Assembly (NCBI RefSeq): GCF_000331285.1
Contig: NZ_ANFX01000012.1
Coordinates: forward strand, 62,001-126,000
DNA length: 64,000 bases
DNA from: Porphyrobacter sp. AAP82
Lineage (GTDB): Bacteria > Pseudomonadota > Alphaproteobacteria > Sphingomonadales > Sphingomonadaceae
Reading direction: 5' to 3'
Of the stretch, positions 12,992 to 35,772 are shown piece by piece. Within the stretch, counting starts at the first letter, position 1. Each line of letters starts with the position of its first letter. Under the pieces are notes generated by a model. The model made no database searches and was not told the DNA's origin. It worked only from the letters and a program-made list of their open reading frames with translations. The translations under genes and the position numbers were made by a program.

Positions 12992-12992
12992 C

Positions 12993-15900: not shown

Positions 15901-16100
15901 CGACCGGACGCCTCGTCGGCGGCCTGTTCGCCGAGGACGGGCGCAGCACCGCCGAGGCGCTGCGCACCTCGCAGGTCGCACTGATGGACGATGCGGAAAC
16001 CTCGCATCCCTTCTACTGGTCGGCCTTCGCGGTGGTCGGCGACGGCGCGGCTGTCGCGCTGAACGCTGGCCGGGGGGCAGGAAATGGACCAGACCGTTGA
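12993..16100 (+). CDS. Exported TPR-CHAT domain protein (caspase-like peptidase candidate)
   Basis: The 1035-residue protein has an N-terminal signal (LAAGPGAARTEA), a central helical region of TPR-like units (about 190-560), a coiled-coil stretch near 560-600 and a C-terminal CHAT domain (about 700-1030). The CHAT domain has the expected caspase-type dyad: HFATHG near residue 866 supplies His and ILSACDTAG near residue 917 supplies Cys. CHAT proteins cleave or regulate partner proteins. GGAGG lies 8 nt before the ATG, which follows the tpsA stop by one base. Its 3' end overlaps the cyclase gene by 17 nt. Location between adhesin and cyclase suggests it processes the adhesin or senses its export; this is inference. 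With a signal peptide, the peptidase would act in the periplasm. Confidence 0.88.
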   Translation: MIVRRHRLLRSALSLAALGTLGASLAAGPGAARTEARASLALRDTFPIGSNGLCEAQILPPEPGAGLFDRRYSVICRDAAAPVGTLWVVKPKSGETAGPARFAGADADCRGDAARAPGALPGLAAVERLGCKRAGSILATDLLIGSRAGRTYAATGLAAYAKALELGIASLASDAVVPGTVEIPLTSTTDAAAFARQQAEAIAADQALVEAYRRSNAGDYAEAAEFFAVSAAALSGPGAAEAQLNSALQQSNLGSFTEARRLFAAARSGSSGSPVLARMQRNYEGMDALNQRQPARALAVLDAPLSSEFGDAEDVRALTIGAALAGQLASESGRIIAEYSSNLTPLERARLLDGQNAYLKAAALRQLGRGSEAPALLAAAERAFADVRGGRVVSVAWLRAQVLGELAENAERAGQSAEAERFHKQAIGLLEGVYPDSPALGSARAQLAGLFARTGRRDDALAIYRGIIGDADGRPLPSLRSVMTPYFALLTDTTAGGGTAGAAADVFAASQLFQRPGLAQTQAALARELSGGSDEASQLFRTATNLGRGIEQQRVSLLELESQPEASTRLASQIAERRTRLGQLEQQQAEVLVRLAEYPRYRAVAGDAIGLAELQAVLGEGEAYVKLVTLDRDTYVVYATRDAARVWRADATPRQLETLVTQIRESIAVIEGGQVNTYPFDLVHARELYVRLFGPVAGELPGLRHLVFEPDGALLKLPVNLLVTDDASVAAYQARMKAKGADEYDFRGTKWLGRSTQVSTSVGPLAFRDVRAARPSDGKRAYLGLGENTPIGTASPGASRVRAALEAGERCTWSPNIWANPIRADELRGAAAKFGGTAQVLTGTDFTDTGIARLPDLSEFRILHFATHGLVTAPQPGCPPRPALLTSFDKDTNSDGLLSFAEIFDLRIDADLVILSACDTAGSATVGAAREAGVRSGGEFALDGLVRAFVGAGGRTVLASHWPVPDDFDATGRLVGGLFAEDGRSTAEALRTSQVALMDDAETSHPFYWSAFAVVGDGAAVALNAGRGAGNGPDR

Positions 16101-19092: not shown

Positions 19093-20490
19093 ATGATACG
19101 AATTCTGGCGGATATGATCGCTGGCCGCGCGGCACCTTCGGGGCCGCGGCGCGTGTTGGCGCGCGTGGCCGCCGTGCTGGCACTGGCCGCGCTCTACCCG
19201 GTCTCCACAGCGCTCGGCGGCGGCACCTTCGAAGGCGTTGCGACCTGCGCCGGATCGACCTGCCACGGCCGCGCCGAAGGCAATGGCGCGGTTGTCAGGC
19301 AGGACGAGATCGCGACCTGGCAGGAACCGTCCTCGCCCTCGGGCGCGCATAGCCGCGCCTATGCCGTGCTCGGCGGGCGCAGGGGCCAGCAGATCGCGGC
19401 GAGCCTCGGGCTCGGCAATGCGCAATCCGCCCCCGCCTGCCTCGGCTGCCACGCGACAAACGCACCCGCCGGCCAGCGCGGCGCGAAGTTTACCCTGACC
19501 GACGGGGTCGGCTGCGAAAGCTGCCACGGCGCGAGCGGTGGCACCTGGCTTGCCGAGCACTATGCGCTGCCCGCCACCCATGCCTCGAACATCGCCGCTG
19601 GCCTGACCCCGCTCGACAATCCGCGCGCGCGGGCGGGCGTGTGCCTCGATTGCCACTACGGATCGAGCAAGCCCGGCCAGTTCGTCACCCACGCGATGAT
19701 GGCCGCGGGTCACCCGCGCGTGTCTTTCGAGCTCGACCTGTTCAGCGCGCTTCAGCAGCACCACCAAATCGACGGCGATTACATCGCCAGGAAGGGCGCG
19801 CCCAGTTCGGTACGGTTCTGGGCGGTCGGCCAGGCCGAGGCGGTGCGGCGCGCGGGCCAACTCTTCGCCCAGCCCAAGCTCGGCTACGAGGGCGCCTTCC
19901 CGCAGTTCTATTTCCTCGATTGCCATTCCTGCCACCGCACCATCGCCGATGGCCCGAACCGCAAGCTCACCTTCGAGACCAATCCGGGCCGCCCGATCCC
20001 CTTCGGCAACCCGCCCTTCAACGACGAGAACATGATCATGCTGTCGGCGGTCGCAGGCGCGCTGGTGCCGGGCGAGGCGGGCGCATTCCAGACCGCCGCG
20101 CGCGACTTCCACAAGGCGTTCGGCGCCGGCCCTGCCGAAGCGCGCGCGGCCGCGCAGGCGCTCTCGGCGCGGGCGGGGGCGCTGGCTGAAAGCCTGTCGG
20201 GCCGCGCCTATGCCGATGCCGACGCCTTCAAGATCATCGCGATCATCGCCGGCGAGGCGACCGCCCCGCGCTTTACCGACTATGCCGGGTCGGTGCAGGC
20301 GGTGATGGCGGTCGACACGCTGCTCAACGCGCTGGTGCGCGAGGGCCGGGTCACGCAGGGCGCGGCGGCGGGCATCCGCGGCGATATCTCCCGCGCCTAC
20401 AAGGCCGTCGAGGAGCCCAATGCCTATCGCCCGGCCGATTTCCGCACGGCGCTCAAATCGGCCTCGACCGCGATTGCACGGCTGAAATAG
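19093..20490 (+). CDS. Periplasmic pentaheme cytochrome c (c554-like)
   Basis: The 465-residue protein has an N-terminal hydrophobic export segment and five heme c attachment sites: an unusual CX4CH (CAGSTCH, about residue 52), then CLGCH (about 116), CESCH (about 141), CLDCH (about 184) and CHSCH (about 277). The arrangement resembles the cytochrome c554 family, which passes electrons between redox partners in the periplasm. The last 150 residues have no heme site and are helical. A G7 tract just before the ATG probably serves the ribosome. It opens a plus-strand operon with two to three bases between genes and the next members, which suggests it works with the beta-barrel and the ten-heme cytochrome. 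Confidence 0.88.
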   Translation: MIRILADMIAGRAAPSGPRRVLARVAAVLALAALYPVSTALGGGTFEGVATCAGSTCHGRAEGNGAVVRQDEIATWQEPSSPSGAHSRAYAVLGGRRGQQIAASLGLGNAQSAPACLGCHATNAPAGQRGAKFTLTDGVGCESCHGASGGTWLAEHYALPATHASNIAAGLTPLDNPRARAGVCLDCHYGSSKPGQFVTHAMMAAGHPRVSFELDLFSALQQHHQIDGDYIARKGAPSSVRFWAVGQAEAVRRAGQLFAQPKLGYEGAFPQFYFLDCHSCHRTIADGPNRKLTFETNPGRPIPFGNPPFNDENMIMLSAVAGALVPGEAGAFQTAARDFHKAFGAGPAEARAAAQALSARAGALAESLSGRAYADADAFKIIAIIAGEATAPRFTDYAGSVQAVMAVDTLLNALVREGRVTQGAAAGIRGDISRAYKAVEEPNAYRPADFRTALKSASTAIARLK

Positions 20491-20492
20491 CG

Positions 20493-22448
20493 ATGCGCGG
20501 GGGGATCACGACGTTCTGGCTGGCCGCGAGCGCGTTGGTGCTGGCTTCCTGCGGGGGCGGAGGGCCTTCGACCAGCGGCGGCGCGACCGGCGGCACCGGG
20601 CCGACACCCACCCCCACCCCGCCGCCGTCCGGACAGGTGTTCGCGGTGCCCGCCGCCGAAAGCCTGTCGAGCGCCGAGGTCGGCACGATCATCGCCCAGG
20701 CCGCCGCCGAGGCGCGCGGGCGGGGCGTGGCGGCGACCATCGCGGTCACCGACCGGGTCGGCAATGTCCTTGGCGTGTTCGCCATGCCGGGCGCAGGTGC
20801 CACCGCGCGCGTCCCGGCCGCCCCCGACGGCACCAGCCGCGACGCGCAGGGCCTGACCATCCCGGCTGCCGGCGCGGCCATCGCCAAGGCGATCACCGGC
20901 GCCTATCTCTCGAGCGGCGGCAATGCCTTTTCGAGCCGCACCGCAAGCTTCATCGTCCAGGAACATTTCCCGCCCGCGCCGACCACGGTGGGGCTGGAGA
21001 GCGGCCCGCTCTACGGGGTGCAGTTCAGCCAGCTGCCGTGTTCGGACCTCGCCGCGCGCGCCGGCGACGGATTGATCGGTCCCAAGCGCTCGCCCCTCGG
21101 GCTCGCCGCGGACCCGGGGGGCTTCCCGCTTTACCAGAACGGCGTGGTCGTCGGCGGCATCGGGGTGATCGCCGACGGGGTCTACGGCCTCGACACCAAT
21201 GTCCTCGACCGCGACAATGACGTCGACGAGGCGATCGCGCTCGCCGGGACGGTCGGCTTCGAGGCGCCAGTCAGCATCCGTGCCGACCGCATCACCGCCG
21301 ACGGCACGAGCCTGCGCTACACCGATGTCGAATATCCGCAACTCGGCGCAGTGGCGGGTGCGAGCTTCGCGGCGACTGCGGGCGCGCTGGTGCCGGTCAC
21401 CGGCTATTATGCCGGCGCGGGCCTGCTGCCGGGCGCGACCTATGGCACCGAGGCCTCGGGCATCCGCGCCTCGAGCGCGGCCGAGTTCGCCAACCGCGAT
21501 GCCTTCGTGCTCACCAACGGCGCGGGCGCGAACCGCTATCCGGTGCGCAGCGGCACCGACGGGGGCGATATCGCCGCGCCGCTGACCGCAACCGAGGCCC
21601 GCGCGATCCTCGAGGAAGCCTTCCTCGTGATGAGCCGCGCCCGCGCGCAGATCCGCCAGCCGCTCGACAGCCGCGCGCAGGTGACGATCAGCCTCGTCGA
21701 CACGCGCGGCGCGGTGCTCGGCATGGTGCGCTCGCCCGATGCGCCGATCTTCGGGATCGACGTGAGCTTGCAGAAGGCGCGCACCGCCAATTTCTTCTCC
21801 GCCCCCTTCGCCGCCGCCGAGCTTTCCGCGGCGAGCGGCGAGGTGCCGCAATTCGTCACGAGGCTGCGCACCTTCCTTGGCGATCCGACCGCGCTGACGG
21901 GGGCCTTCGCGCTGTCCGACCGTGCCCACGGCAACCTTTCGCGGCCCTATTTCCCCGATGGCGAGGTCGGCCAGCCCAACGGGCCCTTCTCGCGCCCGAT
22001 CGGGCAGTTCAGCCCCTTCTCGACCGGCTTGCAGAGCGCGCTGGTGGTCGGCAACCTCGCGCAGCACCTCGGCTTTGTGACGGGTGCGAGCGGGACGGAT
22101 ACCCCGCGCGCCTGCACGAGCCTGCCCAATTCGGCCGGCGGCACGCCGCGGCTCGCCAACGGCATCCAGATCTTCCCCGGCTCGGTCCCGGTCTATCGCG
22201 GCAACGTACTGGTCGGCGGCATCGGCGTTTCGGGCGATGGGATCGACCAGGACGACATGATCAGCTTTCTGGGTCTCCACAACGGCGCCGCGCGCGCCGG
22301 CGGGGGCCTCGGCAATGCGCCCGCCGCGATCCGCGCGGACCGGATCGTGGTGCAGGTCGGCAGCCGCCAGGTGCGGCTGCGCTACGTCAATTGCCCCTTC
22401 GCGCCGTTCATCGGCAGCAGCGAACAAAACGTGTGTCAGGGGCTGTAG
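20493..22448 (+). CDS. Lipoprotein with two HbpS/GlcG-like heme-binding domains
   Basis: The 651-residue protein begins with a lipoprotein signal (LASCGG, Cys near residue 20) and a Gly/Thr/Pro linker. It contains two copies of a HbpS/GlcG-type (DUF336) fold, at about 55-280 and 365-640. Each has a V-x-D-(R/T)-x-G-x-V/L-L-G strand pair and a GGIGV(I/S) strand (VVVGGIGV, VLVGGIGV). Members of this family bind heme or heme-related ligands. The duplicated, lipid-anchored form inside a cytochrome operon suggests heme supply or a redox-sensing accessory role. It starts 2 nt after the pentaheme gene and ends 3 nt before the barrel gene. The family call is good; the function is inferred. Confidence 0.78.
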   Translation: MRGGITTFWLAASALVLASCGGGGPSTSGGATGGTGPTPTPTPPPSGQVFAVPAAESLSSAEVGTIIAQAAAEARGRGVAATIAVTDRVGNVLGVFAMPGAGATARVPAAPDGTSRDAQGLTIPAAGAAIAKAITGAYLSSGGNAFSSRTASFIVQEHFPPAPTTVGLESGPLYGVQFSQLPCSDLAARAGDGLIGPKRSPLGLAADPGGFPLYQNGVVVGGIGVIADGVYGLDTNVLDRDNDVDEAIALAGTVGFEAPVSIRADRITADGTSLRYTDVEYPQLGAVAGASFAATAGALVPVTGYYAGAGLLPGATYGTEASGIRASSAAEFANRDAFVLTNGAGANRYPVRSGTDGGDIAAPLTATEARAILEEAFLVMSRARAQIRQPLDSRAQVTISLVDTRGAVLGMVRSPDAPIFGIDVSLQKARTANFFSAPFAAAELSAASGEVPQFVTRLRTFLGDPTALTGAFALSDRAHGNLSRPYFPDGEVGQPNGPFSRPIGQFSPFSTGLQSALVVGNLAQHLGFVTGASGTDTPRACTSLPNSAGGTPRLANGIQIFPGSVPVYRGNVLVGGIGVSGDGIDQDDMISFLGLHNGAARAGGGLGNAPAAIRADRIVVQVGSRQVRLRYVNCPFAPFIGSSEQNVCQGL

Positions 22449-22451
22449 CGC

Positions 22452-24305
22452 ATGACCCCGCTCATCCCCGCCCTGCTGCTGCTCCAGGCTGCCCCTCCCG
22501 AAGAGGCGACACCCCCGGTCGTGCCGCCCGGCGAGGCGCCCGCCGCGCAGGACTGGGAGCAGGACGCGCCTCCTGTCGATCCGCAGATCATCGAGGGCCG
22601 CGAGCGCCCGGGCTACACCGCGCCGCTGCCTGACAAGATCGAGCAGAACAACCAAGGCGCCGTGCGCGCGCCGCCTCCGCAGGCCTTCCCGGCCGAACAG
22701 GTGCCAATCCCCGATCGCTGGCGGCTCATCCAGAGCCTCGGGTTGGTGAAGGAAAACCTGCTCGATCCCTACAATCAGAACACGCTCAAGGGCGACCGCC
22801 CGATCGACCGCGCCAAGGTGCCGTGGCTGCCGATCAAGGAGGACGATTGGTTTTTCGTCGCCAACCTGATCAGCGACACCGTTTACGAGCCGCGCAGTTT
22901 CCCGATCCCTGTCGGCGTCCAGACCACCGAGGATCCGGACCGCAACGACGTGTTCGGCAACGCCTTCAGCCAGGTCTTCAGCCAGACCTTCATCGCCGGC
23001 TTTGCGCTGCTCAAGGGGTCGACCACCTTCAAGCCGCCGGTCGTCGAATACCGCCTGACGCTGGCCTACAACGTCAACTATGTCGATGTGCCCGAGCGCC
23101 GCGTGCTGTTTGTCGAGCCGACGCGGCCCAGCCATCGCCTCGACCATTTCCTCGGGGTGCAGGAGGCTTTCGTCGACTATCACCTCGCGCGGTTCGACAA
23201 TGACCGGTTCGATTTCATCTCGCTGCGCGCCGGGATCCAGCCCTTCCAGTCGGACTTCCGCGGCTTTCTGTTCAACGACCAGCAGCTTGGCGTGCGGTTG
23301 TTCGGGTCGCGCGACAACAACCGCTTCCAGTTCAACCTGGGCGCCTTCTGGCGGCTGGAGAAGGATACCAACTCGGGCCTCAACGATGTGACGCAGGCCC
23401 CGCGCGACGATTTCGTGTTCGTCGCCAACGCCTACCGGCAGGATTTCCTGATCCCGGCCCTCACCAGCCAGATCACCGTCGTCTACAACCGCAACCGCGA
23501 GTCGGGCGATATCGAGATCGACGACAACGGCTTCCCGGTGCGCCCGGCGCTGCTCGGCACCTTGCGGGGCCGCGAATACGACGCTTTCTACCTCGGCTAC
23601 AACCTCGATGGCCGCATCGGCCGCGTGAACCTGACGGGGAGCTTCTACTGGGCGCTCGGCAAGGACCGCAACAGCTTCCTCACCGATCGTCCGGCGGACA
23701 TCAATGCGCAGTTCGCCGCGGTGGAAGCGAGCTATGACCGCGACTGGATGCGCTTCCGGCTCTCGGCCGCCTATGCCAGCGGCGACGAGGACCCCTATGA
23801 CGACACCGAGGGCGGGTTCGATGCGATTTTCGAGAACCCGGTGTTCGCAGGCGCCGACACCTCCTACTGGATCCGCCAGACCATTCCCTTTGCAGGCGGC
23901 GGGCGGGTCATCAGCGTCAATGGCCGCAACGGGCTCCTCAACTCGCTGCGAAGCTCGAAAGAGCAGGGGCAGAGCAATTTCAACAACCCCGGCCTGATGC
24001 TGGTCGGCGCGGGCGCGGATTTCGATCTGACGCCCGAGTTCCGGCTGACCGCCAACGCCAACCACCTGTGGTTCGAGAACACCTCGGTGCTCGAGGTGCT
24101 GCGCAACGAGGGCTCGATCCCCAAGGAGATCGGCTTCGACCTTTCGGCTTCGGCGATCTGGCGGCCCCATGCCAACCAGAACCTCGTCTTCCGCCTGTCC
24201 GCCGCGACCCTGCTGGCGGGCGACGGCTTCCGCGACCTGTTCACTTCCCGCGGGGGTGGAAAGGAATTCGTCTCGATCCTCGCCAACGTGGTGCTGACCT
24301 ACTGA
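22452..24305 (+). CDS. Outer-membrane beta-barrel protein of the cytochrome island
   Basis: The 617-residue protein has a short N-terminal hydrophobic segment, a Pro/Glu-rich stretch to about residue 90, then alternating strands with many aromatic and charged residues typical of a large outer-membrane barrel, ending VLTY. No TonB plug, porin loop or known substrate motif was recognised. It resembles a DUF1302/alginate-type porin only in style. Its place between a five-heme and a ten-heme cytochrome is the arrangement seen in porin-cytochrome conduits such as MtrAB, although it is not recognisably MtrB. It follows the lipoprotein gene by 3 nt, and its stop overlaps the next ATG (TGATG). Confidence 0.7.
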   Translation: MTPLIPALLLLQAAPPEEATPPVVPPGEAPAAQDWEQDAPPVDPQIIEGRERPGYTAPLPDKIEQNNQGAVRAPPPQAFPAEQVPIPDRWRLIQSLGLVKENLLDPYNQNTLKGDRPIDRAKVPWLPIKEDDWFFVANLISDTVYEPRSFPIPVGVQTTEDPDRNDVFGNAFSQVFSQTFIAGFALLKGSTTFKPPVVEYRLTLAYNVNYVDVPERRVLFVEPTRPSHRLDHFLGVQEAFVDYHLARFDNDRFDFISLRAGIQPFQSDFRGFLFNDQQLGVRLFGSRDNNRFQFNLGAFWRLEKDTNSGLNDVTQAPRDDFVFVANAYRQDFLIPALTSQITVVYNRNRESGDIEIDDNGFPVRPALLGTLRGREYDAFYLGYNLDGRIGRVNLTGSFYWALGKDRNSFLTDRPADINAQFAAVEASYDRDWMRFRLSAAYASGDEDPYDDTEGGFDAIFENPVFAGADTSYWIRQTIPFAGGGRVISVNGRNGLLNSLRSSKEQGQSNFNNPGLMLVGAGADFDLTPEFRLTANANHLWFENTSVLEVLRNEGSIPKEIGFDLSASAIWRPHANQNLVFRLSAATLLAGDGFRDLFTSRGGGKEFVSILANVVLTY

Positions 24306-27300
24306 TGCGCGCGCTCACCCAGCCTTTCGCCCGCCACTTCGCGCTGCTTGCCGCCGCCTTCGTGATCGCCGCGACGATGTTCGCAGGCAGCCCGATGGCC
24401 TCGGACGAGGAGAAACCGGTCAAGCGCGACTACAGCCTCGTCATCGCGGCCCCCGCGCCGCAGCGGCAATCGGTCGCCGAGATGGACGCCAAATCCGCAG
24501 GCTGCCTCACCTGTCACGTCAAGACCGATGCGCCGACGATGCACGTCTCGCCTGCGGTGCGATTGGGCTGCACCGATTGCCATGGCGGCAATGAGGCCGT
24601 GCGCGGCAATTCCGAACTGCCGCACGATCACCCCGATTACGTCGCCGCGCGCGATGCCGCGCATGTGCTGCCCAAGTACCCCAATTCCTGGCACTTCCCT
24701 TCCTCGGCGAACCCCAAGCGCTCCTACGCGCTGCTCAACAAGGAATCGCCGGAGTTCGTGAAGTTCATCAACCCGTCCGACTACCGCGTCGCGCGCGATG
24801 CCTGCGGGGCGTGCCACATCCAGTCGATCGAGAGCGCCGAACGCTCGATCATGGCGACCGGCGCGATGCTGTGGGGCGGGGCGAGCTACAATAACGGCAT
24901 CCTGCCCTTCAAGAACTACCTCCTTGGCGAGGCCTACACGCGCGAGGGCGATCCGGCGCATATCACGACGCCGGGCGCGGGGCCGGGGGGCAAGCTGTCC
25001 GGCGATCAGGTCGCGCGCGGCGTGCTTGCCGAGATGTATCCGCTGCCGACCTGGCACGTGATCCCGCCGGGCGATGTGTTCCGCGTGTTCGAGCGCGGCG
25101 GGCGCACGATCAACTCGCAGTTCCCGGAAATCGGCCTGCCCAACCCTTCGGGCTCGATCCAGCGCCTCGACGAGCCCGGGCGGCCCGATTTGAAGCAATC
25201 GAACCGCGGCCCGGGCACCGGCCTGCGCGTGGCGATCCCCGCGCTTAACATCCACAAGACCCGCCTCAACGATCCCTTCACCTGGTTCATGGGCACCAAC
25301 GACCAGCCGGGCGACTACCGCCATTCGGGCTGCGCGAGCTGCCACGTGGTCTATGCCAACGACCGCGAGCCGCGCCATTCGCTGACCTATGCGCAGTTCG
25401 GGCGCGACGGGCAGTCGATCACCGCCGATCCCACCATCGCCGAGAAGATCGCACATCTGGCCGGTGCGGATGACGGCCACGGCGGCCACGGCGCGGTCAA
25501 GCAGCCGGGCGATGACCACCATGCTGATGCGCTCAGGCAGCAAAGCGGTAGCGCAGACAAGGACTCTGACGGAGCGCTGCGCACGGCCTCGGGCGAGGTC
25601 AAGGAAAGCGGCCACCCGCTCCAGCACGTCTTCACCCGCGCGATCCCTACAGCTCAGTGCATGAACTGCCACATGCACCAGCCGAACATCTTCCTGAATT
25701 CGTTCCTCGGATACACCATGTGGGACTACGAGAGCGACGCGCCCTTCATGTGGCCCAAGCAGCAGAAGTACCCGACCGCCGAGGAAGTGCGCGCTGTCAC
25801 CGACCGCAACCCCGAAGGCGCCGCGCCGCGCGGGAACTGGGCCGACCTCGATTTCCTGCGCAATGTCTACGATCTCAACCCGCAGCTGAAGGACACCCAG
25901 TTCGCCGACTATCACGGCCACGGCTGGAACTTCCGCGCGATCTTCAAGCGCGACCGCGAGGGCAATCTGCTCGATGCGCAAGGGCAGATCGTCGACCCCG
26001 ACGATCCGGAGAAGTGGCGCCGCGAGGGCGAGGGCAAGTTCGTGCCTGCCGGCGTCAACCCCGGCAAGGCGGTCCACCTCATGGATATCCATGCCGAGAA
26101 GGGCATGCAGTGCGCCGATTGCCACTTCGAGCAGGACAGCCACGGCAATGGCCTGATCTATGGCGAGGTGGCGAACGCGATCGAGATCACCTGCAAGGAT
26201 TGCCACGGCACGGCCGACGCCTACCCCACCTTGCGCACCAGCGGCCCGGCCGCGCCGCCCGAGGGGCATAACCTCGCCCTGCTGCGCAACCCGGACGGCA
26301 AGCGCCGCTTCGAATGGCTCGAGGGTCCGGACGGCAGGCAACGTCTGATCCAGCGCTCGATCGTCGACCCGAACCTCCAGTGGGAGATGAGCCTCGTCAA
26401 GGATTCGGTCGATCCCGCCACCCCGACCTTCAACGCCAAGGCCGCGCGCGCCAAGCTCGTCAGCCGTTACGGCGCGGAGACCGGCAATTTCGAATTCGGC
26501 ACCGGCATCTCCGAGGGCGACCGCGCGCACCGCGAGCCGGAGATGGCCTGCTTCACCTGCCACCTGTCATGGACGACAAGTTGCGGCGGGTGTCACCTGC
26601 CGATCGAGGCCAACTGGAAGACCCCCGTCCACCGCTATGAAGGCGGCGAGACGCGCAACTTTGCGACCTACAACCCGCAGGTCGCGCGCGATGAGATGTT
26701 CCAGCTCGGCAAGCACATGACCACCAAGGGCAACCAGGTCGCCCCGGTCCGGTCGTCCTCGGCGCTGGTGCTGTCCTCGACCAACATCAACCGCGAGCGG
26801 ATCTATGTGCAGCAGCCGCCGATCAGCGCGATCGGTTTCTCCAGCCAGGCCTTCGCGCCGCACTTCCCGCACACCGTGCGCCTGACCGAGACCAAGACCT
26901 GCACCGATTGCCACTTGTCCGCCAAGGAAGACAACAACGCGATCATGGCGCAGCTGTTCCTGCTGGGCACCAACTACGTCAACTTCGTCGGTCTCAACGC
27001 GTGGAGCGGGCTGGAGGGCGGCTTCCAGGCGACGCGGGTGACCGAGTATGACGAGCCCCAGGCGGTGATCGGCTCCTACCTTCACCGCTATGCCTATCCC
27101 GATTACTGGGGTCTCCACGTCAACCAGAACGGCCGCGAGCTGAAGAACTGGACACGTGGGCGCACCTTCGATGGGGAGATGTCGGGCGAGACTCACCCGC
27201 TCGAACAGTTCCTCAATGTCCACGAAGGCACGCCGGGCCGCGTCGGCTGTCTCCAGCTGCGCGGCGAATACATGTTCGTCGCCGAGGGCAAGGGCGGGTT

Positions 27301-28441
27301 TGCGGTCTATGACGTCGCCAGCATCGCCAACAAGGGCACTTCCGAGCGGATTCTCAAGGGACCGTTCTCCGCGCTCGGCCACGACACGCAGGTCAAGACC
27401 GCCAACGCAACCTGCATGGCGCTCGCCACCAACCAGCCGATCGCGCCGACCCGCAACACCGAAGCGATGCGCGAGGCCAATCAGGAACAGGCCTTCAAGC
27501 CGATCTACAATTTTGCCGCAGTGACCGATGCTTCGGAGGGCCTGATCCTCGTCAACGTCAACACGCTGGCCGACGGCGAATTCCGCAACAATAAGCTGCG
27601 CCGCCACACCTATGCCGACGGCTCGAACGCATGGAACCCGGGCGGCGTGCTGAACGGCGCGCGGCACATCGTGCTGGCGGGCGAGGTCGCCTATATCACC
27701 GCGGCCAAGGGGCTGGTGGTGGTCGACCTCAGCGACCCCGACACACCCAGACTGGCGGCGGTCCGCGAGCTGCGCGATGCGCGGGCGAGCGCGGTGCAGT
27801 TCCGCTACCTTTGGGTGACCGACGCCGACGGGGTGAAGCTGTTCGACATCACGAGCCTGCGCAATCCGGTCGCCGTGCCCGAGGCGACCGTGCCGCTGGC
27901 CGATGCGCGGCGCACGTATATCGCGCGCACCTATGCCTATGTCGCGGCCAAGGGCGATGGCCTCGTCATCCTCAATGTGACCAACCCGCGCAGTCCCAAG
28001 GTCTACCAGAAGGTGACGCTGGACGGGGCGCTGAACGATGCCGAGGACGTGATCGTCGGCACCACCAACGCCTCGCTGTTCGCCTATGTCGCGGACGGGA
28101 AGAACGGGGTGAAGGTGCTCCAGCTCACCAGCCCCGAAAGCCAGCGCGGCTTCTACGGTTTCAGCCCGGCGCCCAAGCCCGAACTGGTCGCCTGGGCCAG
28201 GACTCCGACGCCGGCGATCGCCATGTCGAAGGGCCTCGACCGCGACCGTGCGGTGGACGAGACCGGCGGGCAGATGGCGGTCTTCGGCCGCTTGGGCTCA
28301 CGCCCCTTCACCCGCGATGAGATGGAGCGGATGTTCATGACCCGCAGCGGCGTGCCGTGGAAGGTTACGGACGATGTTGACATGAAGCGCTGGGTCGGGC
28401 TGGCACCGACAGGAGCGCAGCGGGCGAGCGCGCGGAAGTAA
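24305..28441 (+). CDS. Decaheme cytochrome c fused to LVIVD beta-propeller
   Basis: The 1378-residue exported protein has a signal segment (about 12-32) and ten CXXCH sites: CLTCH (about 66), CTDCH (88), CGACH (167), CASCH (343), CMNCH (452), CADCH (602), CKDCH (630), CFTCH (749), CGGCH (760) and CTDCH (866). The C-terminal part (about 980-1300) holds LVIVD-type repeats such as [13 protein letters not shown] and [13 protein letters not shown], expected to form a beta-propeller, often an extracellular interaction module. A His-rich insert lies at about 395-425 ([13 protein letters not shown]). The start overlaps the preceding stop by one base. It is the probable main electron carrier of the plus-strand unit. 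Confidence 0.92.
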
Positions 28442-28587: not shown

Positions 28588-29457
28588 TTACTCGCGCTCG
28601 GCGAACATGCCCTCGATCATGCCCTGCAAGGCGGGCGTGAAGCGCGCCAGCACCTGCCAGTCGCCGGCCCGCTCGTAGTGCGAGACGAGGGCCTCGCCGT
28701 CCCAGCGGTGGATCGCATAGGTCGGCGGCTCGGTCGTGATGAGCTCGCGCTCGTCGGGCACATGCTGGTCGATCGGCGTCAGGTCCATCGCCACCAGCGG
28801 CGCGACCGAGGGGGTGACCCCGAGCGGAATGCCGGCGAAGCTGGTGCTGATCTGGCGGTGGAGATGCCCGCAATGGATCGCCAGCACCTGTGATTGCCCC
28901 TCGAGCACCGTGTGCAGCCGGGTGATCCAGTCTTCGCCCGGGGCAGGGTCCATCCAGTCGATTCCGGCGACCACCGGCGGGTGATGCATGAAGATCAGCG
29001 TCGGCGTATCGGGCGCCTCGGCCAGCCGCGCGGCAAGCCATGCGGCGCGCGCCTCGCAGAAGGCTCCACCGTGGCGGCCGTCTTCCAGCGTGTCGAGGCA
29101 GATGATCCTTAGGCCCAGTCCGGCATCGACGACATAGTGGAGAAAGCCGCCTTCGGCCGGCACGACCTGCGGAAAGGCGCCAAGCAGGCCTTCGCGGCTG
29201 TCGTGGTTGCCGACCATCGGCAGGATCGGGATCGGGCAATCGGCGAGCAGTGCGACCGTCTTGGAAAAGCTCTCCGCATCGCCGTGATCGGTGATGTCGC
29301 CCGAAAGCACCAGCAGATCGGGGCGGTTGGGCCCTTCGATCAGGCGCTTGAGAGTGGCGCGGAAGCGGGTGAGGTTCAGCTCCTCGGGCTTTTCATCAGG
29401 GGCGAATCCGACATGGATGTCGGTCATCTGCGCGATCAGAACCGCCTTGCCCGTCAT
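28588..29457 (-). CDS. CpdA-like metallophosphoesterase (cAMP phosphodiesterase candidate)
   Basis: A 289-residue cytoplasmic enzyme with all signature motifs of calcineurin-type phosphoesterases of the CpdA group: TDIHVG (about 13), SGDITDHG (about 53), GNHDSR (about 83), MHHPP (about 158) and CGHLH (about 197). CpdA-type enzymes hydrolyse 3',5'-cAMP. The start was placed at the ATG preceded by GGGGGG rather than an upstream in-frame codon. It lies 19 nt downstream of the FHA-cytochrome gene on the same strand, so it is probably cotranscribed with the cNMP-binding flavoprotein. Close linkage to a cAMP-making cyclase and a cNMP-binding oxidoreductase supports a cAMP role, but other phosphodiesters are possible. 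Confidence 0.85.
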   Translation of the reverse strand: MTGKAVLIAQMTDIHVGFAPDEKPEELNLTRFRATLKRLIEGPNRPDLLVLSGDITDHGDAESFSKTVALLADCPIPILPMVGNHDSREGLLGAFPQVVPAEGGFLHYVVDAGLGLRIICLDTLEDGRHGGAFCEARAAWLAARLAEAPDTPTLIFMHHPPVVAGIDWMDPAPGEDWITRLHTVLEGQSQVLAIHCGHLHRQISTSFAGIPLGVTPSVAPLVAMDLTPIDQHVPDERELITTEPPTYAIHRWDGEALVSHYERAGDWQVLARFTPALQGMIEGMFAERE

Positions 29458-29476: not shown

Positions 29477-31282
29477 CTATGGTCTAGCCCGTGCGATCTT
29501 TGCCGCAACCTTTGATTTTTCAGGCGGCGGCGGCTTGTAGTGCGGGGCGGCAGGCTGGATCAACTTCAGACCCTGCCATTGGCCCGAGGGCACGTGGTAG
29601 GCGTGGCACATCGCGCAGTCGCTCGGCACGATCTTGGCGGTCTTGACCGCGCTCGCGCCCAGGTGGCACGTCCGGCAGCTCTTGAGATCGGGCATCAAGA
29701 GATCGCTCGCCAGCTTCGAGGTCTCGGCCGCGTGGCAGTCCGAGCACTTCTGCTTGGTGTGCGCAGCGTGGCTGAAATAGCCGCCAGTGAGGAAGCGCTC
29801 GGGGAAATTGACCGGCATGAGGTCGGCCTGCCCCGTCGGCCCGCGGGTCGGCAGGTGGCATTCGGTGCACACGCCCCCGGTGGAGAGCGCGTTCGAGATC
29901 CCGATATAGGCGCGCACCGGCCGGCCGAAATCGGCGCGGTAGGGCGATGCGCTGCCGATCTGTCCGGGACGCTGGCGGCTGGGTGCGAGTGCGGGGCGCG
30001 GGCCCGAGGTGATCCGCGCGAGATCCTCGGCAAGGTTCTTGACGCTGCCGTGGCGCAGTTTCCCGAACCCGCCACCGGCCGTGCGGCCCGAGACCAGGCT
30101 GTGGCACGCCTCGCAGGCCTGCTCCATCTCGACCGGCTTGAAGGTCACCTTGTCGGCGGTTGGCGCGTGGCAGTCCTTGCATTCGAGCGGGGCTCCGTAT
30201 TGCGCGAGGCTCACCGCCATGCGCGCCGCCCCGCCGCGCGGGTTCATGTGGACATCATGCGGGAAGACCAGGCCCGAACGCTCGAGAGGCATGGTCCCGG
30301 CGCTCGCCCGCACGGGCTTGGCCGCGCCGAAGCTTGCGAAATAGAGCGGGCGGAACTGCGGGTGATCCTTGCCGAAATCATGCGCATTGGCGAGGTCGGT
30401 GTCGGCGAGGCGGGTCTTGAGATCCTTGTGGCAATCGCCGCAGAAGGCCTCGCTCGCCGCCTGGGTGCGCACCGGCCCTTCGTGCTCGGAATGGCAGGCG
30501 ACGCAGCCCAAGGGGCCTTCCTTGCCGAAACCCTCGGCGATGGACCATTGCAGCGCATCGCCTTGCGAGAGCGGCGGCATGCCCTTGGCAAGACGCGGCT
30601 TTTGCGCATGATCGGCGATGTCCTTGTGGCACGACAGGCAGGTCTCGTCCTGGACGCTTTCAAAAGCCGCGACGTGGCAGCTTTCGCAATTGTTCTCGAG
30701 GCTGTGGTGCTTCAGCGACAGCTCGCCCGATGACCAGGCGCTGTCCATCAGCACCGCGCCCTCGGTCTTGCCGGTCGGATCGGGCTTGGCGGGGGTGCAC
30801 AGCAGGTGCGAGGCGATCGGCAGGGCCAGCAGCAGCAGGACGATCGCCGCGGCAAAAATCCAGCTCATCGCGCGCTTGCTGGGCAGCTTGGAGGCGAGCG
30901 CAAAGCCGCGCAGCGCGTCCATCTTGCCCTCGTCGGCGATCACCTGGCGGATGGTGATGGCGATATTGCCATCCGCCTCGCGCGTGACAGCGAGCCGCGC
31001 CGCGCCCAGCGCGATCTCGCCGCCGGTGCGCGGGTCGATGGTGCCTTCGGTGACCACCCGGCCATCGAGCCCGAAGCCCAATGTGCCGAGCGCCCTGACG
31101 CCAAGCGTGCCGTCCGCGGCAAGATCGATGCCGACATGGCGCTGCTCCACCGCAAGGTCGGGCAGGTGGATGTCGTTCTCGGCCGCACGGCCCACGGTGA
31201 GGCGCGGCTGGTCGACCACGCGGTCGCGCACGATCTCGCGGCCGGCGGCGGTGAAGTCGATGGTGCGGATCAGGAAAGCCAT
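29477..31282 (-). CDS. FHA domain - transmembrane - decaheme cytochrome c fusion
   Basis: The 601-residue protein has an N-terminal FHA-like domain (about 1-110) with VGRAAENDIHL followed by QRHVGI, close to the GR...S/N..H pattern of phosphothreonine-binding FHA folds. One membrane helix follows (about 139-161). A periplasmic region carries ten CXXCH sites: CESCH (about 199), CLSCH, CVACH, CGDCH, CKDCH, CEACH, CTECH, CSDCH, CRTCH and CAMCH (about 556). Topology would put FHA in the cytoplasm and the hemes in the periplasm. It follows the b-type cytochrome gene by 10 nt. The likely role is to accept electrons from the membrane cytochrome, with the cytoplasmic FHA docking a partner or giving phospho-control. 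The C-terminus is Lys/Pro-rich. Confidence 0.9.
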   Translation of the reverse strand: MAFLIRTIDFTAAGREIVRDRVVDQPRLTVGRAAENDIHLPDLAVEQRHVGIDLAADGTLGVRALGTLGFGLDGRVVTEGTIDPRTGGEIALGAARLAVTREADGNIAITIRQVIADEGKMDALRGFALASKLPSKRAMSWIFAAAIVLLLLALPIASHLLCTPAKPDPTGKTEGAVLMDSAWSSGELSLKHHSLENNCESCHVAAFESVQDETCLSCHKDIADHAQKPRLAKGMPPLSQGDALQWSIAEGFGKEGPLGCVACHSEHEGPVRTQAASEAFCGDCHKDLKTRLADTDLANAHDFGKDHPQFRPLYFASFGAAKPVRASAGTMPLERSGLVFPHDVHMNPRGGAARMAVSLAQYGAPLECKDCHAPTADKVTFKPVEMEQACEACHSLVSGRTAGGGFGKLRHGSVKNLAEDLARITSGPRPALAPSRQRPGQIGSASPYRADFGRPVRAYIGISNALSTGGVCTECHLPTRGPTGQADLMPVNFPERFLTGGYFSHAAHTKQKCSDCHAAETSKLASDLLMPDLKSCRTCHLGASAVKTAKIVPSDCAMCHAYHVPSGQWQGLKLIQPAAPHYKPPPPEKSKVAAKIARARP

Positions 31283-31292
31283 CGCCGCCCCC

Positions 31293-32171
31293 TCACCAGT
31301 AGTAGAACACGCTGATCACATGCGCGGTAAGCGCGGCGATCAGGGCGATTGTCAGCGGGATGTGGATGAACAGCCAGATCTCCAGCAGCGCGCGGATGCG
31401 CAGCGCGCCGCGGATCTGGGCGAGCTGTTCGCGGCGTTTTTCGAGCAGGCTCGCCACCCGCGCCTCGGCCTCGCTGCCGGTGCCCATGCCCGCCAGCGCG
31501 CGAGCGGTCTTGCAGCCGGGATAGCTCCCCGTGAGCCGCGCCAGCGCGCTGCCGTAGAACACGTCCTGGCCGAGCGCGGCGATCACCAGATCGGATTCGG
31601 CGCGCGCCAGCGGCTGCGCGGCGCTCTCCAACTGGCGGTCGAGCGCGGTCAGCGCGTCGAGCATCTGCGCGCGGGTCATTTCCTTGCGATTGGCGCTGAG
31701 GCTCTGCGGCAAGGTCGCATAGACGATCACGCCATAGATGCCGGTCGCGATCACCAGCAGCATCAGGACATAGGCGAGCGTGTGGACGTTCCAGCCGATC
31801 TGGAAGCCGGTGTGAAGCGTGCCCACCACGATCAGCGCAAGGCCGAGGTAGACGTGGGCGCTGGTCCACGCTTTGAGGCTCCACACGCCGGGATTGATGC
31901 GCCGCTTCCTCACGCCGAGCAGCGAAAGCCACAGGATGAGCCCGAAGCCGATGGTGCCGAGCGTATAGCCGTACCACGTGCCGCCATTGGGGCGCGGGTC
32001 CTGGTCGATCATCAGATAGCCCGCGATCGAGGCCGCGCACAGGGCAAGCGCGATCCACAGCCAGCGGAAGCCCTTGTGCTTCAGGAAGCTCACATGGTCG
32101 CTGTCGCGCCGCCGCTCGTCCTGGCTGAAACGTCCCGTGCCGCCCGCCTTTGCCCCCGCTTTGGTCGCCAT
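31293..32171 (-). CDS. Membrane b-type cytochrome-like protein
   Basis: The 292-residue integral membrane protein has about five helices: two near residues 34-90, two at 105-160, and one at 264-290. Several helices contain His suited to bis-His heme b binding: SAHVYLG, GTLHTGF, NVHTLAY, FIHIPLT and TAHVISV. A cytoplasmic-looking helical loop (about 165-255) separates the last helix. It resembles cytochrome b561/ferric-reductase-type electron carriers but was not assigned to a named family. The ATG overlaps the flavoprotein stop by one base (TAATG), so the two are translationally coupled. It probably moves electrons from the cytoplasmic iron-sulfur flavoprotein to the periplasmic hemes. Confidence 0.78.
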   Translation of the reverse strand: MATKAGAKAGGTGRFSQDERRRDSDHVSFLKHKGFRWLWIALALCAASIAGYLMIDQDPRPNGGTWYGYTLGTIGFGLILWLSLLGVRKRRINPGVWSLKAWTSAHVYLGLALIVVGTLHTGFQIGWNVHTLAYVLMLLVIATGIYGVIVYATLPQSLSANRKEMTRAQMLDALTALDRQLESAAQPLARAESDLVIAALGQDVFYGSALARLTGSYPGCKTARALAGMGTGSEAEARVASLLEKRREQLAQIRGALRIRALLEIWLFIHIPLTIALIAALTAHVISVFYYW

Positions 32172-34708
32172 TATTCGACGTCCTCGGTAAGCTTGGCGAA
32201 GGTCAGGAACTTGTCGGGGCTGACGCGGATCGCGGCGCCTGTCGGGCAGGCGCGCACGCAGGCAGGGCCCCCGTCGATGCCGGAGCACATGTCGCACTTG
32301 ATCGCCTGCTTGGCCTTCTGCCCGCCGTCCTTCTCGGCCGCCTTCTTGCGCCAGCTATAGGACGCCTCGCCGGGCCCGGGGCCCGTGCCGAACAGCATCC
32401 ACTGGAGGAGGCTCGGCTTCTTGGGGGGCTTGGCGTCCATGCGGATCACGCCGTAGGGGCAGTTCCTCTGGCAATTGCCGCAGCCGATGCAGGTCTCGTC
32501 GATGAACACCTCGCCGTCGGGCCCGCGCTTGATCGCGTTGGGCGGACAGTCGGCCATGCAGTGCGGGTGTTCGCAGTGGCGGCAGGATGTAGGCACGTGG
32601 AGGTGCGCGTAGGTCTTGCCCGCCTCGCGATCCAATCGCGACAGGCCGTCATGGCTGTCGGCGCAGGCTTTCTCGCAATTGTCGCAGCCGATGCACAGCT
32701 TCTCGTCGATGAGCAGCACGTCGGTCGCCTCGCCGATGCCGTTGTCGACGAGGAACTGCGCGGTCTGCGAATAGAGATCGACCGCGCCCGAAAACTCGTC
32801 CTTGCGGCTTTCGATGAAGGAATTGGTGGCGCGCCGGCCCGACATGTCCTTCAGGGCGCGCTCGCGCAGCGCGGGGTTGCGGTCGAGCAGCGCGAGGAAG
32901 CCTTCGCCCGGCAGGCGGATCACCTCGGACTTGATCGCGGCCTTGACGGTCGCGGTGCGCGCCGATCCGTCGATCACCGCCATCTCGCCGAAATAGGAGC
33001 CCGCCGGCAGGTAGGAGAGGAACACCGGCTTTTCGCCGATCGCCTTCTCGACGATCATCGAGCCGCGGCGGATGATGAAGATGTCCTTGTCGTCCGCGCC
33101 CTCGGTGACGACCACCTCGCCCGCACGCTTTTCCTCGACGCGCGCAGCCTCGACCAGAGGGGCGACATCCTCGCGGGTCAGGCCCGATCCGAACATCTGG
33201 AGCAATTGCCGCTCGATCGAGATGCGCTGAATCGCCGTCTTGGCGCTCGGCACCTGCGATTGCAGCTTCAGCGCGGCAAGACGCGAGATCTCGACGACGA
33301 TGGTGTCCTCTGCCGCGCGGATCGTCGCCCCGCGCCGGCGGCCCGAAATGAGGCCGACCTCGCCGAAGATCGATCCGGCTTCGATGGGAATGGTGATCGA
33401 GGGGTCGGCCGGGTTCACTTCCACCGCCACCGAACCGCTGGCGATCCCGAACAGCGATGACCCGGGGGCATTGCGCTCGAAGATCACTTCGCCCGGCGCG
33501 AAGAACTTCGCCTCCGAATCGAGCATGAATTCGCGCATTTGCAGCGGGTTCATGCCATTGAGGATCGAGACATTGGCGCGCAGGAATTCGAGCCATTCCT
33601 CGGTCGAACGGTTGCCCGGGAGCTTGGCGAACTTGGCGGCGATGATCGGCTCGTCGGCAGGCTTCAATGCGGTGTTGCCGTTGATGAACTCGATGACGTC
33701 GTGGCCCTGGTTCATGCAGTGCTTGATCAGCGGGTAGCCCGCCAGCGCGCCGATCACGAAGATGCCGGGCGCGGTCGATTCGAACACCGGCGACAGGCGC
33801 GGGAAGGCGCCGCGGTCCTCGCTGGTGAACTCGATCCCGCATTCCTCGACAAAGGCGCGCGGCGGGGCCGAGCCGATGCGGGCGATGATCCGGTCGCAGG
33901 GGATGCGAATCTCCCCGTCGCGCGTGGCCAGCGTGATCCAGCCGGGCTCGATCGCCTTGGTCTCGCTTTCGTTCCTGACGGTAAGCTTGCCCGCTTCGTG
34001 ATCGGCCATCAGCGCGCTGACGTTGGCGGCCTTGGCGGTCGGGAATTCGGTGCCGCGGTTGAGGATCGACACGGTGTTGCGCTGCGCCGGGTCCTCGGCA
34101 AGGCCGCGCGCGTTCTCGATGCCTGCGTCCCCGGTGCCGACGATGATGATGTGCTCGTCGACATATTCGGTGGGGTCGTCGAGCTGGTATTGCACATGCG
34201 GCAGGTCCGCGCCCGGGCAGCGCATCAGGTTGGGGTTGCCCTGCGTGCCGATGGCAAGGATGACGTTTTCCGCCATCACCGTCTCGCCATTCGTCAGTTC
34301 GATGGCATAGGGCGGGGCGTGGCGCTGCAACTCCTTGATATTCTTGGTGCCGTCACGCGCGCGGGTGACGATCTGCTGGATACTCCCGGCAATCGCCTCG
34401 CCGGTGCCGCGGATCGCCCTGGCTTCGGCGTGATACTTCACGTTGACCTTGTGGCCCGCGATCTGGTCGTCCCAGATCCCGAGGATCGTCTCGCGCTTGC
34501 CCGCGTCGAAATCGATGTCGCTGCGCAGCACCAGATTGCTGGGCGTCGCCATGACGTGCTTGCCCTTCTGGTACTTGTAGATCGTGTCCGACAAGTGGTC
34601 GGTCTTTTCGAGCAGCACATGGCTCAAGCCCAGCGCCGCCGCCCGCGCAGCCGCACTGAGCCCTGCCGGGCCCGAACCGATGATTGCGACTTTAAAAATC
34701 CCGCTCAC
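32171..34708 (-). CDS. Flavoprotein oxidoreductase - two cNMP-binding domains - 4x[4Fe-4S] ferredoxin fusion
   Basis: An 845-residue soluble fusion. Residues 1-340 form a two-dinucleotide-fold oxidoreductase with FAD motif GSGPAGLSA (about 10) and NAD(P) motif GTGDAGIE (about 190), resembling YpdA/thioredoxin-reductase-like enzymes but without a CxxC redox pair. Two cyclic-nucleotide-binding domains follow (about 405-505 and 520-640). The second has a canonical FGEMAV...SARTATV pocket; the first, FGEVGL...GRRRGAT, is less standard. The C-terminal ferredoxin unit (about 665-830) has four Cys clusters, including CIGCDNCEKAC, CIGCGNCQRNCP and CVRACP, of the HybA/DmsB electron-transfer type. Start is GTG. 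The gene is first in the minus-strand unit. It likely feeds NAD(P)H electrons to the membrane cytochrome, gated by cAMP or cGMP. Confidence 0.93.
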   Translation of the reverse strand: MSGIFKVAIIGSGPAGLSAAARAAALGLSHVLLEKTDHLSDTIYKYQKGKHVMATPSNLVLRSDIDFDAGKRETILGIWDDQIAGHKVNVKYHAEARAIRGTGEAIAGSIQQIVTRARDGTKNIKELQRHAPPYAIELTNGETVMAENVILAIGTQGNPNLMRCPGADLPHVQYQLDDPTEYVDEHIIIVGTGDAGIENARGLAEDPAQRNTVSILNRGTEFPTAKAANVSALMADHEAGKLTVRNESETKAIEPGWITLATRDGEIRIPCDRIIARIGSAPPRAFVEECGIEFTSEDRGAFPRLSPVFESTAPGIFVIGALAGYPLIKHCMNQGHDVIEFINGNTALKPADEPIIAAKFAKLPGNRSTEEWLEFLRANVSILNGMNPLQMREFMLDSEAKFFAPGEVIFERNAPGSSLFGIASGSVAVEVNPADPSITIPIEAGSIFGEVGLISGRRRGATIRAAEDTIVVEISRLAALKLQSQVPSAKTAIQRISIERQLLQMFGSGLTREDVAPLVEAARVEEKRAGEVVVTEGADDKDIFIIRRGSMIVEKAIGEKPVFLSYLPAGSYFGEMAVIDGSARTATVKAAIKSEVIRLPGEGFLALLDRNPALRERALKDMSGRRATNSFIESRKDEFSGAVDLYSQTAQFLVDNGIGEATDVLLIDEKLCIGCDNCEKACADSHDGLSRLDREAGKTYAHLHVPTSCRHCEHPHCMADCPPNAIKRGPDGEVFIDETCIGCGNCQRNCPYGVIRMDAKPPKKPSLLQWMLFGTGPGPGEASYSWRKKAAEKDGGQKAKQAIKCDMCSGIDGGPACVRACPTGAAIRVSPDKFLTFAKLTEDVE

Positions 34709-34723: not shown

Positions 34724-34794
34724 TCGCGGATAGATCGCCCCCTGTGATGCACAATAACCAAAACCGGCTCCGATGCCAGAGCGAATTGCCCCGT

Positions 34795-34824
34795 CATGCC
34801 CGCAGTGCTAGCGAAGCGGGCATG
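34795..34824. repeat. Palindrome overlapping the TPR-gene start
   Basis: CATGCCCGC and GCGGGCATG form a perfect 9-bp dyad separated by 12 bases (AGTGCTAGCGAA). The right arm contains the ATG at 34822 used here as a start. The makeup is that of a dispersed intergenic palindromic element; the alternative is that it encodes residues PRHARSASEAGM if translation begins upstream. Confidence 0.7.
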
Positions 34825-35772
34825 GGACAGGGCGAAAAGCTGCCTCAGGGCGGATCATCGAAGGCGGGGTGGGTGTTGCTGGGGGCGGCATTGCTGCTCG
34901 CGGCAGGCTCGATCGGGTTCAACATCTACCAGGGTTCCGGCGGTGCGGGCGAGCCGGCAGCGGCGGCGAGCGGCGATGCCTCGATCGAGCAACTGCGCGC
35001 CGCAGCCGAGGCGTCCACCGACGATGCCGGCCCATGGGGCGATCTGGCCTTCGCCTATTTCAACCAGGGCCAGTATGACGAGGCCGCCGCCGCCTATCGC
35101 CGCGCGGTCGCAATCGCGCCGGGCGAGGCGGTGCTGTGGTCGGCACTGGGCGAGACGCTGGTGCTGGCAAGCAAGCGCGAGCCGCTCCCCGCAGAGGCAT
35201 TGCAGGCCTTCGAAAAGGCGCTGGCTCTCGATGCCGAAGACCCGCGCGCGCGCTATTTCCTCGCCGCCAAGAAGGACCTCGACAAGGACCACGAGGGCGC
35301 GATTGCGGCATGGCTCGATCTGCTCGCCGATTCGCCGCAGGGCGCGCCGTGGGAGGCGGATCTGGTGCGCACCATCGAACAGGTCGGGCAGATCAACAAG
35401 ATCGATGTCGCGCCGCGCATTGCCAAGGCGCAGGAAGGCCGCAAGCCGGCGATGATCGCACCGGGATCGGGCGCGGTGGCGGGCGCCGGCGCCTCGGACA
35501 ACCTGCGCGGGCCGACCGCGGCCGACGTTGCCGCGGCGGGCGCCATGAAGCCCTCCGAACAGCGCACCATGGCCGAAGGCATGGTCGAACAGCTCGAAGG
35601 GCGGCTCGCCAAGGAGCCGGCGAATATCGACGGCTGGATCATGCTGATGCGCAGCCGCATGACACTGGGCGAACCGGCCAAGGCGAAGGCGGCGCTCGAT
35701 GCGGCGGTCAAGGCCAACCCGGGCGCGGCATCGCGGCTGCGCGAGGCGGCGGCGCAGCTCGGGGTGACCTGA
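34822..35772 (+). CDS. CcmI/CycH-like TPR protein, cytochrome c maturation candidate
   Basis: The 316-residue protein has one N-terminal membrane helix (about 16-36) and TPR units at about 60-150, then a Gly/Ala linker and a C-terminal section beginning MVEQLEGRLAKEP followed by DGWIMLMRSRMTLG. That segment closely resembles CcmI/CycH, the TPR protein that presents apocytochromes c for heme ligation. Divergent placement beside genes encoding 25 heme sites supports a maturation role. The start is uncertain: the chosen ATG lies in the right arm of a palindrome with a poor ribosome site, while GTG at 34744 or ATG at 34747 would add 25-26 residues. Confidence 0.72.
   Translation: MGQGEKLPQGGSSKAGWVLLGAALLLAAGSIGFNIYQGSGGAGEPAAAASGDASIEQLRAAAEASTDDAGPWGDLAFAYFNQGQYDEAAAAYRRAVAIAPGEAVLWSALGETLVLASKREPLPAEALQAFEKALALDAEDPRARYFLAAKKDLDKDHEGAIAAWLDLLADSPQGAPWEADLVRTIEQVGQINKIDVAPRIAKAQEGRKPAMIAPGSGAVAGAGASDNLRGPTAADVAAAGAMKPSEQRTMAEGMVEQLEGRLAKEPANIDGWIMLMRSRMTLGEPAKAKAALDAAVKANPGAASRLREAAAQLGVT

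Follow-up and report, generated by a model that had tools for sequence, protein, structure and literature searches.

A flavin-ferredoxin oxidoreductase with tandem cyclic-nucleotide domains, encoded near a class III cyclase in Porphyrobacter sp. AAP82

In most bacteria, CRP is regarded as the sole route of global action for cyclic AMP (cAMP) (review, PMC11139211). Here, we report a computational analysis of OXR, an oxidoreductase of Porphyrobacter sp. AAP82 in which two cyclic-nucleotide-binding (cNMP) domains lie between a flavin part and a ferredoxin part, encoded in a 64,000-nucleotide stretch (the window; NCBI RefSeq assembly GCF_000331285.1, contig NZ_ANFX01000012.1, positions 62,001 to 126,000 of the forward strand). 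We lean towards reading OXR as an NAD(P)H dehydrogenase of a membrane and multihaem chain, whose flavin-ferredoxin step would be switched by cAMP from a cyclase encoded nearby.

Genes at the locus

The gene, its parts and the cyclase gene lie in the window as follows.

32171-34708, minus strand: OXR, oxidoreductase with two cNMP domains, 845 residues, GTG start, first gene of its operon
33674-34708, minus strand: OXR residues 1-345, FAD/NAD(P) part with two dinucleotide folds (Pfam and structure model comparison)
33209-33571, minus strand: OXR residues 380-500, cNMP domain 1, phosphate-binding cassette FGEVGLISGRRRGAT at 33323-33367
32834-33196, minus strand: OXR residues 505-625, cNMP domain 2, phosphate-binding cassette FGEMAVIDGSARTAT at 32948-32992
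32204-32716, minus strand: OXR residues 665-835, ferredoxin part, HydN/AegA/DmsB-like (Pfam, NCBIfam and homologue alignment)
16084-18147, plus strand: CYC, class III cyclase with CHASE2 domain (PF00211 and catalytic residues)

Domains and nucleotide pockets of OXR

Pfam places Pyr_redox_2 at residues 5-335 and 4Fe-4S dicluster domains across about residues 665-835, giving the order flavin, two cNMP domains, ferredoxin, and bearing out the architecture put forward in an original prediction made from the letters of the window. The ferredoxin part holds 16 cysteines, invariant in 101 homologues and patterned as in four-cluster electron-transfer subunits (HydN, AegA, DmsB), from which four [4Fe-4S] clusters are predicted. 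Of 100 genomes of the genus, 63 encode an OXR homologue, and other pseudomonadotal classes have homologues too, down to 43-49% identity. A structure model (AlphaFold2 with 30 homologues; mean predicted local distance difference test score [pLDDT], 67.5; predicted template modelling score, 0.53) was usable in the flavin part, fair in the cNMP domains and below 50 (pLDDT) in the ferredoxin part. The nearest fold to the flavin part was YpdA/Bdr (7a7b; Z 26.9, root-mean-square deviation 5.0 over 307 residues), with thioredoxin reductases also near.

The family cNMP_binding (PF00027) matched OXR in two stretches (103.5 bits, gathering cut-off 27.5; whole-protein E 6e-30), and each domain scored singly was above the cut-off. 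In known cyclic-nucleotide-binding domains (CNBDs), two residues of the phosphate-binding cassette, one Glu and one Arg, hold the cyclic phosphate; the corresponding Glu450 and Arg459 of domain 1 and Glu575 and Arg584 of domain 2 were invariant in all 101 OXR homologues, down to 43% identity. The cassettes were also ranked among 231 15-residue windows taken from both domains, using eight remote homologues (identity, 43-66%). Cassette 1 came top (0 higher), with a mean identity of 85% to the OXR studied here, against averages of 40-44% for the whole domains. Sequence matches between OXR and PKA regulatory subunits extended over both cNMP domains of the latter. The RTAT motif of domain 2 led us to consider cyclic GMP as a possible ligand; the nearby cyclases look adenylate-type.

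Linkage to class III cyclases and co-occurrence

CYC scored 50 bits against PF00211 (cut-off 21.9) and retains the metal-binding Asp pair, the Lys and Thr/Asp adenine signature and the transition-state Asn and Arg (D, K, D, T, N, R). No other class III cyclase was found in the genome. A gene for a CHAT-type protein (recognized by eye; 12912-16100) overlaps the start of CYC, and CHAT-like genes also stand by other cyclases (L158, L160, L161 and L163). In another genome, the neighbour of the cyclase gene (L150:5526-7052) encodes a mechanosensitive-channel-type protein bearing a cNMP domain, another possible cAMP effector.

A class III cyclase lay at most 25 kb from OXR in 41 of 68 OXR-positive genomes, against 2.2 expected from cyclase numbers and genome sizes, a contrast for which no exact P is quotable because genomes were treated as independent and the 25-kb limit was set post hoc. 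The neighbouring cyclases that were examined, among them that of G526 at 32.5 kb (extracted with a hidden Markov model; subfamilies defined by less than 50% identity in the catalytic domain), fell into eight subfamilies and carried the adenylate-type Lys and Thr/Ser signature with the sole exception of G041. The claim that a cyclase is encoded near OXR thus held, with both CHASE2 and class III catalytic domains present and a proximity beyond chance. The suggested association of nucleotide synthesis with sensing proved real, conserved and repeated across genomes, the sensing domains sitting in an electron-transfer protein and not in a transcription factor.

In an order sample of 246 genomes, a class III cyclase was present in 55/55 genomes with OXR, compared with 34/191 without it. 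Within the genus, 81 genomes passed as good (completeness 90% or more, contamination 5% or less). OXR and a cyclase were both present in 51 of them and both absent in 30, never one alone; nine of those with both hold them more than 100 kb apart. On an rpoB tree (71 good rows), 11 of 11 independent pairs were concordant (p = 0.001).

A CRP-like regulator with an intact cassette (L165) is encoded elsewhere in this genome, so cAMP may act on genes too; the FNR-like and thioredoxin-reductase-like cNMP proteins of the genome have not kept the cassette. All 34 genomes of the order sample that carry the CRP-like orthologue were cyclase positive, as expected of a positive control. That orthologue was missing in 27 of the 55 OXR-positive genomes; in some of these, a partial cassette is found in other proteins of the CRP family. 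We considered, and rejected, that some genomes have no cAMP receptor besides OXR, because they also encode the CRP-like protein or further members of the CRP family, whose cassettes are full or partial.

Operon and envelope genes

OXR is followed on the same strand by three genes, and a fourth diverges from it.

31293-32171, minus strand: CYTB, b561-like membrane cytochrome, four predicted transmembrane helices, conserved His
29477-31282, minus strand: FHAC, decahaem cytochrome c with an FHA-like N-terminal domain, one transmembrane helix and 10 CxxCH haem sites
28588-29457, minus strand: CPDA, metallophosphoesterase, SpdA/CpdA-like, last (fourth) gene of the operon
34744-35772, plus strand: TPR protein (CcmH/CycH type), transcribed away from OXR, close to it in most loci

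The OXR stop overlaps the CYTB start codon (TAATG), and FHAC starts about 10 bases after CYTB. The order OXR-CYTB-FHAC-CPDA was kept in nearly all of 80 Sphingomonadales loci where sequence suffices; in other classes of Pseudomonadota, OXR-CYTB-FHAC was kept, often with envelope genes, without the phosphoesterase. CYTB scored 25.5 bits against prokaryotic cytochrome b561 (PF01292; gathering cut-off 30.1). The haem part of FHAC is probably on the periplasmic side. Its FHA-like domain retains Gly-Arg and His and lacks the usual phosphothreonine-contacting Ser, and it may serve docking or be degenerate. The TPR protein probably has a role in cytochrome c maturation.

OXR and CYTB form one chain of 1118-1123 residues in two loci of another class (L151, 3052-6423; L154, 6849-10205), and these fusions are the best evidence that electrons may pass between the two proteins, in either direction. 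A different arrangement was seen in L155 (8302-10002) and L156 (8623-10404), where a cNMP domain is joined to a four-cluster-type ferredoxin without a flavin part, followed by genes for a cytochrome b and a protein with ten CxxCH sites.

Convergent with the operon is a set of envelope genes, present in about half of the 80 Sphingomonadales loci.

24305-28441, plus strand: OMC, exported decahaem cytochrome with LVIVD repeats
22452-24305, plus strand: POR, exported 617-residue protein, candidate outer-membrane barrel, judged by eye on its composition and C-terminus
20493-22448, plus strand: HBPS, exported lipoprotein-like protein with HbpS-like domains (haem-degrading family), between cytochrome genes
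19093-20490, plus strand: C554, exported multihaem cytochrome of the c554 family, four CxxCH and one CX4CH

A Pfam search with POR gave no match. CYTB, the multihaem cytochromes and the barrel-like POR, which the original prediction had left out, may together be the electron destination.

Related systems

Close counterparts of the redox parts are AegA and YgfT of Escherichia coli (formate-dependent uric acid utilization), which like OXR join a four-cluster HydN-like ferredoxin to a pyridine-nucleotide flavoprotein in one chain and unlike it have no cNMP domains. The ferredoxin part matched NF009408 (AegA/YgfT; E 2.3e-21), and OXR stayed below the cut-offs of both AegA/YgfT models in NCBIfam (75.6/1003 and 52.8/1154 bits). 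Their domain order is opposite to that of OXR, as the match positions also indicate. The flavin part shares its fold with the bacillithiol disulfide reductase YpdA/Bdr and with thioredoxin reductases (TIGR04018, E 1.2e-32; 113 bits against the YpdA model, below its cut-off of 339.9); its acceptor is very likely an iron-sulfur cluster and not a disulfide, because cNMP and iron-sulfur domains come after the flavin part. In formate dehydrogenase N and dimethyl sulfoxide reductase, a four-cluster ferredoxin (beta) feeds a membrane subunit (gamma), as may OXR and CYTB (TIGR02951, E 8.7e-15; TIGR01582, E 2.9e-10), with a flavoprotein in OXR replacing the molybdenum subunit. The Mtr and Pcc porin-cytochrome conduits have a similar set of inner-membrane cytochrome, periplasmic and exported multihaem proteins and barrel-like gene, the likeness here being one of gene content.

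Tandem cNMP domains with intact cassettes are found in the PKA regulatory subunit and in PKG, where they control a kinase; those of OXR sit inside a redox chain. A precedent for a bacterial enzyme directly controlled by a fused cNMP domain is the mycobacterial cAMP-dependent acetyltransferase Pat, which differs from OXR in having one such domain and in its activity (OXR against NF058543, 51.5 bits; cut-off, 460). CyaC, a membrane cyclase of Sinorhizobium meliloti, responds to respiratory redox state (PMC10463352), a link from redox state to cyclase that runs opposite to the one proposed here, from cAMP to electron flow. The modules of the OXR system are all known, and their combination, an effector enzyme with fused CNBDs in a respiratory-type chain, appears to be new; no description of the architecture was found in the open-access papers searched.

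Proposed mechanism and alternatives

In the mechanism that we propose, electrons would pass within cytoplasmic OXR from NAD(P)H to FAD and on to four [4Fe-4S] clusters, from these to haem b of CYTB in the membrane and haem c of the FHA-anchored decahaem FHAC, and from FHAC onward to the cell envelope or outside, where the OMC, POR, HBPS and C554 genes are present. The 3',5'-cAMP made by the membrane-bound class III adenylate cyclase would bind the tandem cNMP domains and alter the contact between flavin and ferredoxin, switching electron flow on or off. Control of electron flow by cAMP is probable because OXR has two intact pockets and a cyclase gene lies nearby beyond chance; binding and gating as such are predictions from sequence. 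The cofactor content, the coenzyme (NADH or NADPH), direction of flow, sign of the effect and final acceptor are likewise conjectural, the chain being drawn from family knowledge. That, across many Sphingomonadales and here and there in the rest of the Pseudomonadota, cAMP directly and allosterically gates NAD(P)H electron flow into a membrane-to-envelope multihaem chain is a plausible, tentative extension. If true, this would be direct, fast, post-translational cAMP control of electron disposal by a widespread redox enzyme, and a case in which the effector of cAMP in bacteria is an enzyme of respiratory type, usually with a cyclase gene near; it would provide a target for many Sphingomonadales class III cyclases and a ready-made cAMP-switched electron module.

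Several points weigh against gating by cAMP. Some cNMP-type domains bind no cyclic nucleotide, and cassette 2, in which Glu and Arg are kept, is otherwise average, with 52 of the 231 windows scoring higher. The structure model is weak, so the relative placement of the domains is not readable from it and no gating geometry is claimed. The 25-kb limit was picked after a first look at the distances, and 27 of the 68 OXR-positive genomes have no cyclase within it. When only unlinked cyclases (more than 100 kb away) were kept, two to three independent pairs were left on the tree, so joint gain and loss of one linked block may explain much of the co-occurrence.

The nearest competitor to gating is that cAMP bound by OXR controls how the electron-transfer complex assembles, docks at the membrane, oligomerizes or stays stable, and not the electron path. 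We consider it rather unlikely, yet not far behind gating, and sequence by itself reads the same for docking and for gating: it too would account for the invariant cNMP contact residues, the cytoplasmic FHA-like domain of FHAC could serve docking, and the cNMP domain found with ferredoxin, cytochrome b and decahaem genes in L155 and L156 fits a role on the ferredoxin and membrane side. More doubtful is the view that the cNMP domains have a structural role or a different ligand (another nucleotide, or a metabolite), the cyclase serving a CRP-like regulator or some other target. CRP/FNR proteins with other ligands share the cNMP fold, this genome has its own CRP-like protein with an intact cassette, and CHAT-like genes accompany other cyclases too; however, invariant Glu and Arg in both cassettes together with eight linked cyclase subfamilies are difficult to account for unless a cyclic nucleotide is involved, and the CRP-like orthologue is absent from about half of the OXR-positive order sample, even if other CRP-family proteins occur in some of those genomes. 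A last view, very improbable, is that cyclase and OXR have no functional tie and that a genomic block which travels and disappears whole produced both the linkage and the co-occurrence. Co-occurrence does come mostly from linked genomes, but cyclases of eight subfamilies lie near OXR across several classes of Pseudomonadota, and a passenger should not be re-acquired; the nine good genomes of the genus that keep both genes far apart also speak against it.

Phosphoesterase

The original prediction placed a CpdA-like phosphodiesterase next to OXR and had it degrade the nucleotide. The gene is there, on the same strand, with CYTB and FHAC in between. Its product matched the calcineurin-like phosphoesterases (PF00149, 56.2 bits; cut-off, 21.5) and shares the class III phosphoesterase motifs of SpdA and CpdA, its best NCBIfam matches; the histidines of its metal motifs (DIH, GNHD, HH and GHLH) were invariant in 69 sequences. 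Identity with CpdA was not upheld (NF008359, 75.8 bits; cut-off, 225), and the protein scores nearer SpdA, still below the cut-off (NF050112, 134.6 bits; cut-off, 400). The founding SpdA, of S. meliloti, cleaves 2',3'-cAMP and 2',3'-cyclic GMP with no detectable activity on 3',5'-cAMP (PMC4222275). The case for a degradation step is weakened: the metal motifs are intact and the gene is retained in the operon, but the better of the two scores is to the family of an enzyme with no detectable action on 3',5'-cAMP. In L145, from an alphaproteobacterium outside the family, the phosphoesterase gene (136.5/400 bits for SpdA, 97.7/225 bits for CpdA) lies 3 bp from a CHASE2 cyclase gene, just past the operon. 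CPDA may still hydrolyse cAMP, given its place in the operon and, in L145, beside the cyclase.

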